The notes beneath the pieces are model-generated. The model was not told the origin of the DNA. It searched no databases and saw only the letters and a list, made by a program, of their open reading frames with translations. The position numbers were made by a program, and so were the translations under genes. 64,000 bases of DNA from Hydrogenobacter sp. (GTDB lineage: Bacteria > Aquificota > Aquificia > Aquificales > Aquificaceae). Below are positions 12,473 to 41,984 of the stretch, in pieces. The stretch spans positions 1 through 64,000 of the forward strand of contig JBEULM010000051.1 in the NCBI GenBank assembly GCA_041287335.1, given 5' to 3'. The first letter of the stretch is position 1, and each line of letters opens with the position of its first letter.

Positions 12473-13538
12473 ATTTTTCCCTGAAAACTTCTCTCCTGAA
12501 CCTTTCTGCATTAAGTCTTATTACCTCAGGCGAAAATTTGCTTTCCGATCTTTCAAAATCTTTTATAGCTCTCAGAAGTTCAGTTTGGCTTTGTTCCCAA
12601 AAAAGTATCCCCGTTTTTCTATCTACAACCACCTCATTTGCACCACCTCGTCCGTAAGCTATAACAGGTACACCGCAAGCTTGAGCTTCTACCATAGCCA
12701 TACCAAAATCCTCTTCAGCCATATAAATAAATGCTTTCGCTTTCATCAGGTATAACTTAAGCTCTTCTCTATTCACATAACCGAGAAATTCTACGTTCTT
12801 GCTGGCATCTTTTTTTAGTCTTTCGTAATCTGGTCCATCCCCTATTACGAGAAGTTTCCTATCTTTTATGGAGGAAAAAGTACTCACTATAATATCAATC
12901 CTCTTGTAAGGCACAAGCCTTGACACTGTTATGTAATAATCTTCCCTGTCTTTACTTACATTGAAGAATTCTACATCAATAGGTGGGTATATAACTTCAG
13001 CGCTCCTCCCATAGATTTTCCTTATGCGCTCTGCTACAGATAGCGAATTAGCTATGAAGTGATCAACTCTCTGTGAACTCGCATAATCCCACATCCTTAT
13101 ATAGTGAAGGAAAATCTTGGCAAGAAAACCTCTCACACCTCTGTCAAGGCGCAGCTGTCTGATGTACTGATGATACAGATCCCACGCGTATCTTATAGGT
13201 GTGTGACAGTAACATATATGAACTTGTCGGGAGTGCCTGAGAACACCTTTAGCTACAGCGTGCGAGGAAGATATTATAACATCGTATTGCGAGAGATCAA
13301 ATTGCTCCACCGCGAGAGGAAAAAGAGGAAGGTAGTATCTGTAGTACTTTTTTGAGAAAGGGAGCTTTTGTATGAAGGATGTGTAAATTTCGGCATTTTT
13401 TAGGGGTTCTTTAAGAGATCCCGTGCCGTTACACAAAAGCGTGTATATAGGCGATGGGTAAAGTCTGTATATTTCCTCAAGCACTATTTCAGCACCACCG
13501 TACGATACAAGCCAGTCATGAACTATAGCACTTTTCAT
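12423..13538 (-). CDS. Glycosyltransferase family 4
   Basis: 371 residues. Starts KSAIVHDWLVSYGGAEIVLEEI, the classic N-terminal motif of GT4 enzymes such as WcaC/WbaZ-type mannosyltransferases. HICYCHTPIRYAWDLYHQYI is the conserved middle motif of this subgroup. The donor-binding part is SRLVPYKRIDIIV followed by EEDFGMAMVEAQACGVPVIAYGRGG, with both conserved glutamates. Likely role in lipopolysaccharide or exopolysaccharide assembly with the convergent gene at 11351. Upstream is the 700-base repeat region, which must hold its promoter. Confidence 0.88.
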   Translation of the reverse strand: MKSAIVHDWLVSYGGAEIVLEEIYRLYPSPIYTLLCNGTGSLKEPLKNAEIYTSFIQKLPFSKKYYRYYLPLFPLAVEQFDLSQYDVIISSSHAVAKGVLRHSRQVHICYCHTPIRYAWDLYHQYIRQLRLDRGVRGFLAKIFLHYIRMWDYASSQRVDHFIANSLSVAERIRKIYGRSAEVIYPPIDVEFFNVSKDREDYYITVSRLVPYKRIDIIVSTFSSIKDRKLLVIGDGPDYERLKKDASKNVEFLGYVNREELKLYLMKAKAFIYMAEEDFGMAMVEAQACGVPVIAYGRGGANEVVVDRKTGILFWEQSQTELLRAIKDFERSESKFSPEVIRLNAERFRREVFREKFKAFVENSLSSPPQRS

Positions 13539-14242
13539 ACACCTGCTTAGTATTATATCCCATATATATGTTAATATAATATCAAAAGAATTTCACACCA
13601 TAGCTTATAAATGCTGTTTTTCAACGTATAAAGGAATATATGATTTTTATTATAAAAATTGTTCATATCATTGTAAATCAAGAATAAAGAAGCGATCATC
13701 TGTTAATATAATGTCATTTTGTTAGATCGTTGAAATACAAGCTTTATAATAGAATTTCACATCTATAAAATTTTCTCGCAAAATCAATGAGTTATGAACC
13801 AAGAATTTCACAGGAATTCCACATCTTCTTCACACCCTTTAATGGATCGCAAAAGCTCGTTTTCATAAACTATTGAAAATGCGTACTTTTTTATAAAAAG
13901 ATCTTCACATAGTGCTACACATTGATATTTAAGCTCCAAAATAGAATTTCACATGTAAAATCATAAGCCATTGATCTTACGTTACATTTTTTAAATTAAT
14001 TGATCTTACGGAATCAATGATTACAAGCATGGGGTGTGAAAAGGTGTGAATGAAAATTATAAGTTATTGATCTTACGTTACATTTTTCGGACAAACGAGC
14101 ACTACAGAATCAATAACTTCAAATATGGGGTGTGAAATTCTTTTTACCAGATTGAGTAATATCAATGACTTGAGCTTTTCCGCGCCCTTGAGGTATTCTT
14201 TTATTATTATTATAAAAAAGAAAGAATAATAAGAAGACTAAG
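13539..14242. repeat. AT-rich non-coding block with repeated TTCACA and ATCAAT motifs
   Basis: No plausible gene on either strand in 704 bases. The block contains the hexamer TTCACA on the plus strand at 13592, 13756, 13807, 13829, 13904 and 13948, plus TTCCACA at 13817, then the same motif inverted (TGTGAA) at 14035, 14045 and 14131. Five copies extend to GAATTTCACA. A second family, ATCAAT, occurs about eight times on both strands (for example 13783, 14013, 14109, 14161). The left end (13557-13700) is especially AT-rich. No canonical DnaA box (TTATCCACA) is present. It could be a replication origin, a large regulatory region or a remnant; see findings. Confidence 0.75.
13957..14140 (+). repeat. 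Imperfect tandem repeat, period 96 bases, two units
   Basis: Unit 1 begins at 13957 and unit 2 at 14053. Three landmarks keep an exact 96-base offset: TTGATCTTACGTTACATTTT (13971 and 14067), GAATCAAT (14011 and 14107) and GGGGTGTGAA (14031 and 14127). Between these landmarks the units have diverged, including at 14005-14010 versus 14101-14106, so conserved blocks have been kept while spacers drifted. Confidence 0.85.
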
Positions 14243-15208
14243 ATGGAGATGCTAAATACACTTGCAAAGGAACTCAACGCTAAGGTTGTTCAAACGCACG
14301 CAAGCTGGGTACTTATTTTGGAAGACGTGGTCTATAAAATAAAAAAGCCTGTTAATTTTGGTTTTCTCGATTATTCTACACTTGAGAAGAGAAGAGAAAA
14401 CTGCGAGAAAGAGGTACTTTTGAATAAGAGGCTTTGCGAAAACATCTACTTAGGTGTCGTGCCTATAAGCTATGTATTCGGTTCTTTTCGTATAGAAGAT
14501 GAAAGTAATGTGGTGGAATATGCGGTAAAGATGAAAAGGATACCCCAAGAGAGGCTATTGTTAAATATGCTTGACAATGTATCAGAAGAGGATATGAAAA
14601 GGATAGCAAGACGCATAGCTATATTCCATTCTATGGCTGAAAGGAAGGACGAATTTGGAAAACTTGAGGTTATAAAGTACAATACAGACGAAAATTTTGA
14701 ACAAACGCAAAAGTATGTTGGAATAACTATAGATGAAGCAGACTACAGATTCATAAAGGAAAAAACGGAAGCTTTCTATAAAAAATACACTCATCTATTT
14801 GAAAAAAGGATAAAAGACGGTAAGATAAGGGATGGACATGGGGATATTAGGCTTGAGCATGTAGCACTTTTGGAAGAAGGTATATGCGTGTTTGATTGTA
14901 TAGAGTTTAACGAACGTTTTAGATGTGGTGATGTTATAAACGACATGTGTTTTCTCTCTATGGAGCTTGACTTTTATGGTAGGAAAAATTTATCCCTGGC
15001 TTATGAAGAAGAATACAAGAGGCTTTCAATGGATGAAGAATTTGACATATTCTTACCTTTCTTTAAGTGTTACAGAGCTTATGTTAGAGGAAAAGTAAAC
15101 AGTTTCCTCTTGGACGATCCCTATTACCCATCAAAAGAATCGGCTACTGTCTTGGCAAAAAAACTCTTTAAGCTGAGCACTTTTTATGCACAGCTCATAC
15201 CTACTTGA
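14243..15208 (+). CDS. Aminoglycoside-phosphotransferase-like kinase domain protein
   Basis: 321 residues. The N-terminal lobe has SWVLILEDVVYKIKKPVNFGFLDYSTLEKR, typical of the APH half of 'bifunctional aminoglycoside phosphotransferase/ATP-binding' proteins. The catalytic loop is DGHGDIRLEHV and the metal site DCIEFNERFRCGDVINDMCFLSMELD. Those fusion proteins carry a P-loop kinase domain after this point; here the protein stops, and a matching P-loop protein is encoded alone at 28985. The substrate is unknown; drug resistance should not be assumed. It follows the repeat block, with no clear ribosome site. Confidence 0.8.
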   Translation: MEMLNTLAKELNAKVVQTHASWVLILEDVVYKIKKPVNFGFLDYSTLEKRRENCEKEVLLNKRLCENIYLGVVPISYVFGSFRIEDESNVVEYAVKMKRIPQERLLLNMLDNVSEEDMKRIARRIAIFHSMAERKDEFGKLEVIKYNTDENFEQTQKYVGITIDEADYRFIKEKTEAFYKKYTHLFEKRIKDGKIRDGHGDIRLEHVALLEEGICVFDCIEFNERFRCGDVINDMCFLSMELDFYGRKNLSLAYEEEYKRLSMDEEFDIFLPFFKCYRAYVRGKVNSFLLDDPYYPSKESATVLAKKLFKLSTFYAQLIPT

Positions 15209-41911: not shown

Positions 41912-41984
41912 TGGGCTGGGCGGGAGTCGAACCCGCGACCCACGGATTAAGAGTCCGTTGCTCTGCCTGCTGAGCTACCAGCCC
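41912..41984 (-). tRNA. tRNA-Lys (anticodon CTT)
   Basis: Reads on the minus strand: acceptor GGGCTGG pairs with CCAGCCC, discriminator A, CCA not encoded. Anticodon stem ACGGA/TCCGT holds CTCTTAA (anticodon CTT). The lpxK frame runs 38 bases into the tRNA and stops with the TAA in the anticodon loop; the ligase ATG lies 10 bases beyond the tRNA 3' end. It must be cut out of a longer transcript by RNase P and 3' processing enzymes. Confidence 0.95.

Follow-up and report, generated by a model that had tools for sequence, protein, structure and literature searches.

The non-coding block

The window, the whole stretch of DNA analyzed, comprises 64,000 nucleotides (G000:C51:1-64000) from a genome of 1.67 Mb in 64 contigs (G000). 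A glycosyltransferase reading frame on the minus strand starts at position 13538, and the next reading frame starts at position 14243. The region between them (13539-14242) constitutes the candidate oriC block. It had been described as a gene-free stretch of 704 bases, and only open reading frames of at most 52 aa were indeed found between 13538 and 14243. Each of the four other genomes of the genus has a single locus that is 69-71% identical to the block. Comparison of the block to Rfam gave no match, leaving a reading as structured RNA without support. For the reading frame called from 14243, the start is probably the ATG at 14249, to which the starts of the relatives align (window 14243-14251). 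Elsewhere in the window a tRNA-Lys called by ARAGORN (41912-41984) shares bases with the beginning of a co-directional 586-aa ORF; one of the two calls, the tRNA or this ORF start, may be in error.

The block holds ten 9-mers with a TTYCACA core, seven right-pointing and three left-pointing, which are candidate DnaA boxes. Boxes 1 (13589-13597, plus strand) and 2 (13753-13761, plus) and the terminal inverted box 10 (14131-14139, minus) read AATTTCACA and are invariant in all five genomes of the genus. Box 3 (13804-13812, plus) is also AATTTCACA and fits AATTYCACA in five of five genomes, while box 4 (AATTCCACA, 13815-13823, plus) does so in four and reads ACACTCACA in G004. Box 7 (13945-13953, plus) is AATTTCACA in four genomes and ATTTCCACA in G002. 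Box 5 (TTCTTCACA, 13826-13834, plus) and box 6 (ATCTTCACA, 13901-13909, plus) are degenerate; the CACA site of the former is aligned and the TTCACA core of the latter is present in all five genomes. Box 8 (CTTTTCACA, 14035-14043, minus) has a TGTG core aligned in all five genomes, the other four being one or two bases shorter after the core. The TGTGA core of box 9 (TCATTCACA, 14045-14053, minus) is found in five of five genomes, and this box fits the Helicobacter pylori consensus TYATTCACN (PMC8235120).

The motif counts of the original prediction were reproduced. TTCACA occurs six times forward (13592, 13756, 13807, 13829, 13904, and 13948) and three times inverted (14035, 14045, and 14131), and TTCCACA occurs once at 13817. 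Chance levels were obtained from 1000 dinucleotide shuffles of the block. The nine TTCACA (shuffle mean 0.62), the five AATTTCACA (mean 0.04) and the three TTGATCTTACG (mean 0.00) were each reached in none of the 1000 shuffles. ATCAAT, estimated at about eight copies, is present exactly eight times, four per strand, a number matched by 2 of the 1000 shuffles.

A second motif of 18 bp, TAAGT-N11-CG (termed motif 2), is interleaved with the boxes and often occurs in inverted pairs. Two copies on the plus strand, at 13964-13981 and 14060-14077, have PWM scores of 25.2 and 26.0, respectively. The copy at 13777-13794 (minus, score 19.9) contains an IHF-consensus site at 13782-13794, where AATCAATGAGTTA matches WATCAANNNNTTR, the IHF consensus taken from PMC10380432. 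Of the two weaker copies, one is located at 13866-13883 (plus, 13.7) and the other at 14155-14172 (minus, 17.1); the latter carries an IHF-consensus site at 14160-14172 (TATCAATGACTTG matches WATCAANNNNTTR), which separates the last box from the triplets described below. The previously noted 96-bp tandem duplication extends over 13957-14137, with 1.9 copies and 77% matches, and its unit consists of motif 2, an inverted motif-2 half and an inverted box. The three conserved blocks ascribed to it were found to be a motif-2 copy plus ACATTTTT, the degenerate inverted motif-2 half (AATCAAT) and the GTGTGAA box.

An AT-rich candidate unwinding element adjoins the boxes at the right end of the block (14195-14238). 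The GC-rich stretch CCGCGCCC (14180-14187) precedes a DnaA-trio-like run of TAA/TAG triplets on the bottom strand, TAATAATAATAAAAGAAT (14195-14212), which is followed by an AT- and purine-rich tract (14213-14238). This tract is presumed to be the rest of the unwinding element, and a like tract is found at the right end of the blocks in most relatives. The left end is also AT-rich as originally noted (22-23% GC), but as an unwinding element the right end (14180-14238) is the better candidate. On the left, a conserved AT-rich repeat is present on the plus strand as copy 1 with TGTTAATATAATATCA (13566-13584) and copy 2 with TGTTAATATAATGTCA (13698-13716), both closely similar in all five genomes. 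This left end, which holds two TGTTAATATAAT repeats, is conserved as well and could participate in unwinding.

Conservation among the relatives

The block is present in all five genomes of the genus (G000-G004), and all ten box sites are homologous in the alignment. Invariant columns of the five-genome alignment make up 79% of the boxes, 66% of the motif-2/IHF sites and 36% of the rest. The observed invariance of the box columns was reached by none of 629 slid box placements. A like order of elements was found in 14 genomes of three genera. In the two other genera, right-pointing boxes are followed by motif 2, left-pointing boxes, an IHF-like site and triplets, with different flanking sequence. 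Both motif families are conserved in the relatives, as the original prediction had proposed to check.

The flanking genes vary. G004 shares the glycosyltransferase on the left and has a lipoate-ligase-like gene on the right. G001 shares the right gene, and its left neighbor is a short-chain dehydrogenase (SDR), the gene that follows dnaA in the genome of the window. Since a like element lies beside other genes in two further genera, the block is not the promoter of its neighbors.

Motif 2 keeps its outer bases and spacing in the three genera, reading TAAGTCATTGATTTTACG in the genus of the window and TAAGTATTGGAATTTCCG and TAAGTATGGCTTTTTCCG in the others. Matches to the strict motif-2 pattern are confined to the blocks in the genus of the window and one sister genus. 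All four strong copies of G004 are located inside the block, with scores of 24-26 compared to 16 for the best copy elsewhere. The motif-2 core contains the IHF consensus WATCAANNNNTTR in the genus of the window and departs from it in two genera. This consensus occurs twice in the window block, three times in that of G004 and two to five times per block in the genus, against a genome expectation of 0.03 per 720 bp, and IHF-consensus sites in the block are approximately 100-fold enriched. In the other genera one or two exact IHF sites lie near the right end of the block, with none in G012. Three genes of the HU/IHF family are present in the genome of the window. Motif 2 may be bound by IHF/HU or by a factor yet to be described. 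It is possible, although doubtful, that its ligand is an origin-specific protein distinct from both DnaA and IHF/HU, in which case these Aquificaceae origins would be two-factor origins with a new initiator partner; this reading is suggested by the outer TAAGT, the CG and the 11-bp spacing being kept where the core departs from the IHF consensus.

The right end of the sister-genus block reads TAATAATAATAATAG-ACCCCTGCA-AATTTCACA, which matches the DnaA-trio unwinding system (BUS). On the bottom strand of G014, G021, and G033, a run of TAA/AAT triplets that closes with TAG is followed by 9-11 bp of C-rich spacer and then AATTTCACA; G019, G031, and G036 have a like arrangement of trio, spacer and box with a spacer of 8-10 bp. 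The trio-GC-box geometry with a spacer of 8-11 bp was therefore found in six sister-genus genomes. Published BUS spacers do not exceed 16 bp and are most often 10-13 bp long (PMC8287927), and a strict BUS has three or more xAx triplets no farther than 16 bp from a box carrying no more than two mismatches. The six sister-genus genomes fit this definition, as does G012 with an inverted degenerate box. The window and G004 also have the triplets and the GC-rich step; there, 55-61 bp with an IHF-like site lie between the triplets and the closest strong box. With a distance of 55 bp in the window, its element was not filed as a strict BUS. The 13-mer CTATTATTATTAT, which is related to TAATAATAATAAAAGAAT, occurs once each in G004, G014, and G012, always within the block. 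The triplets are eroded in G001-G003, where no run of four trio triplets was found, and the genus of the window as a whole therefore falls outside the strict BUS.

Uniqueness of the box cluster, dnaA and base skew

G004, of the same genus, is a single contig of 1,743,135 bp, of which 92% (1.59 Mb) was scanned. Seven of its ten AATTTCACA copies and all five AAGAATTTCACA copies were located in the block. The block contains 5 of the 22 genomic AATTTCACA copies in the genome of the window, 6 of 16 in G001, 4 of 10 in G002 and 5 of 11 in G003; in the other genera the corresponding numbers were 12 of 25 (G014), 11 of 21 (G021), 10 of 14 (G027), 6 of 14 (G019) and 2 of 6 (G012). No second AATTTCACA cluster was found in these nine genomes. 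In an unbiased 9-mer scan of G004 the block cluster ranked second, behind an array that reads as CRISPR, and canonical TTATNCACA boxes reached at most two per 600 bp in the scanned part. A bacterial oriC has a single dense cluster of initiator 9-mers on the chromosome, and this pattern was found. G005, G007, G009, and G013 had no AATTTCACA cluster, and since these four belong to the same family the block form is limited to part of it.

Two other repeats were observed in G004. The CRISPR-like array (G004:C1:1122560-1125300) has the repeat GTTTCAATCCCTTATAGGCACCTAATAAAC in a 2.7-kb gap lacking long ORFs, and some of its spacers occur twice. At locus L225 (G004:C1:509996-510260), six of the eight genomic TAGTGTCCA 9-mers lie within an ORF of 1953 bp, and a second ORF, whose start is P-loop-like, follows immediately downstream; these 9-mers look like mobile-element repeats.

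Linkage of oriC to dnaA is common but not universal. The absence of dnaA from view was originally held against an origin, an objection weakened by the approximately 2.4 kb between dnaA and the block in G001 of the same genus. The distance is approximately 15 kb in G019 and 34 kb in G021. In G004, G012, G014, and G027 dnaA is hundreds of kb from the block, which counts against oriC. Two of six single-contig genomes have dnaA within 35 kb, for which a simple binomial estimate, with the threshold chosen post hoc, gives a chance level of approximately 2%.

The single full-length DnaA encoded in the genome of the window has GKRDHTSA as its recognition sequence (DHTS motif). The motif is DHTS or DHTA in the block-bearing genera examined and DHTT or DHST in most other family members; the correlate is weak, because DHTS is also present in one genus where no block was detected. 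A divergent recognition motif in the DnaA of A. aeolicus was considered and rejected, as the sequence reads KDHTT. DnaA autoregulation was likewise rejected, the region upstream of dnaA in the genome of the window having no TTCACA box. A second, weaker DnaA-domain match in a 219-aa frame (G000:C29:29928-30356) could be an Hda-type regulator.

The 9-mer AATTYCACA was correctly described as fitting the relaxed DnaA box TTWTNCACA at seven of nine bases, with positions 1 and 2 mismatched. The block has no exact canonical DnaA box. The weight originally given to this is lessened by several of the box differences between genomes being T/C changes at the fifth base, the N of TTATNCACA. Lineage-specific DnaA boxes exist, e.g., TYATTCACN in H. 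pylori (PMC8235120), and AATTYCACA is best read as a candidate lineage-specific DnaA box.

The raw cumulative GC skew of G004 has its minimum at 1.177 Mb compared to 0.959 Mb for the block (92% of the genome). After correction for coding, the best origin/terminus fit was reached by about a third of sign-randomized gene sets. An early skew minimum at the block, seen in a 23% sample of G004, was discounted since it was gone at 92% coverage. Skew samples of G014 and G019 were likewise uninformative. Replication-dependent skew is near zero in Aquifex aeolicus (PMC2099444), and Aquificae genomes have alternating purine-rich segments (PMC4070872). The skew minimum, originally proposed as a check, cannot decide on oriC, because G004 shows no detectable replication-linked skew and the Aquifex values are near zero. 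A test of gene order by distance from the origin between genera gave weak correlations of 0.18, -0.07, and 0.11.

Origin reading and alternatives

Based on this analysis the block is very probably the oriC, at which this Hydrogenobacter-type bacterium of the Aquificaceae and its relatives in three genera would start chromosome replication. Our high confidence in this reading comes from comparative anatomy: the clustering and uniqueness of the motifs, their conservation independent of the flanks, the enrichment of IHF-consensus sites and the trio geometry in sister genera. DnaA would bind the approximately ten AATTYCACA-type boxes in two facing arrays, seven right-pointing and three left-pointing, which an IHF/HU-like bending protein or another factor on the interleaved motif-2 sites would fold. 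DnaA is then predicted to open the AT-rich right end, where the GC-rich step and the TAA/TAG triplets (DnaA-trio) may guide it to one strand. Helicase would be loaded, and replication would start at the block. Weighing against oriC are the absence of skew support, the 55-61 bp between triplets and strong box in the genus of the window, the eroded triplets of G001-G003, the distant dnaA of four genomes, the lack of the box upstream of dnaA and the four family genomes in which no AATTTCACA cluster was found.

The original prediction left a choice between oriC and a multi-site regulatory region. In the window the block does lie between divergent glycosyltransferase and kinase-like genes which it might control. 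However, the right gene is another in G004, the left gene is another in G001 and both flanks are different in the other genera, and promoter-like matches number 6 compared to 5.5 in shuffles. Because the anatomy is constant while the flanking genes vary between genomes, oriC fits and regulation of the neighbors does not; conservation without the flanking genes has already largely refuted this half of the prediction, and we regard it as highly improbable. We give equally little credence to an integrated plasmid or phage with an iteron origin. Such origins have similar interleaved repeats, but the block is one locus per genome with a like site order in three genera, gave no match among 72,556 plasmid and 50,697 phage records and has no replication-initiator gene among the nearest neighbors examined.

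datA and DARS consist of DnaA-type boxes with IHF sites, and the DnaA-type boxes and IHF-consensus sites of the block have the same make-up. DnaA and IHF could then bind at a DnaA-titration or -reactivation locus with replication starting elsewhere. This is improbable, since no other box cluster in G004 could serve as oriC and the triplets and AT-rich tract are found at the same end in several genera. A partition site (centromere), where a segregation protein on the repeated sites would move the chromosome, would agree with a single locus per chromosome having long arrays and two motif families, of which motif 2 is without explanation. The parS site, however, is a palindrome unlike the 9-mer of the block, which fits the DnaA box at seven of nine bases, and the trio-like, AT-rich right end would be left unexplained. 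A partition site is therefore quite unlikely.

Read as oriC, the block resembles that of Escherichia coli in its facing DnaA-box arrays, an IHF site near the unwinding element and an AT-rich element at one end (PMC10316083, PMC10380432). It differs in its box (AATTYCACA compared to TTATNCACA in E. coli), in having several IHF-like sites within a longer repeated 18-bp motif and in the trio-type triplets at the right end. The oriC of H. pylori also has a TTCAC-type box (TYATTCACN), a GC-rich step and a DnaA-trio including AAT triplets (PMC8235120, PMC10316083), but it is bipartite, whereas the block is single and usually not beside dnaA. The basal unwinding system (BUS) of Bacillus subtilis and others shares the box, the short GC-rich spacer and the repeated 5'-TAG/TAA-3' triplets, a geometry found in the sister genera, whereas in the genus of the window the nearest strong box lies 55-61 bp from the triplets, beyond an IHF-like site. 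Thermotoga maritima, also a thermophile, has an oriC with boxes in both directions, a GC-rich step and trio-type triplets (PMC10316083). That origin is smaller (149 bp minimal, five boxes) and has another box sequence. With its second interleaved motif the block would be an origin of unusual design, and it suggests a layout that stays constant as the box and unwinding sequences vary. We know of no counterpart of motif 2 in the T. maritima oriC.

The Aquificaceae are an often-cited early-branching thermophile family. In a literature search we found no experimentally placed Aquificales origin, and oriC and dnaA are absent from the text of the H. thermophilus and T. albus genome papers (PMC3111988, PMC3035279). 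The usual base-skew method gives no origin signal in the relative tested (G004) or in Aquifex, hence the value of the block. New in this work would be an origin placed in a lineage where skew fails, its AATTYCACA box and the second interleaved motif. Exact coordinates of the candidate origin that can be tested are 959,257-959,827 in G004 and about 948,335-948,870 in G012, which are probably cultured species.

Aquifex-type genomes were searched for a counterpart with both motifs, and no such cluster was found. G007, which has no visible AATTTCACA cluster, contains a single motif-2 match (TAAGTCATGGGCTTTGCG, G007:C1:227844-227861) approximately 19 kb from dnaA (208723). G023 and G029 of the same genus as G007 share TAAGTTATTGGTTTTCCG. 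The G007 match is a possible lead to the Aquifex origin.
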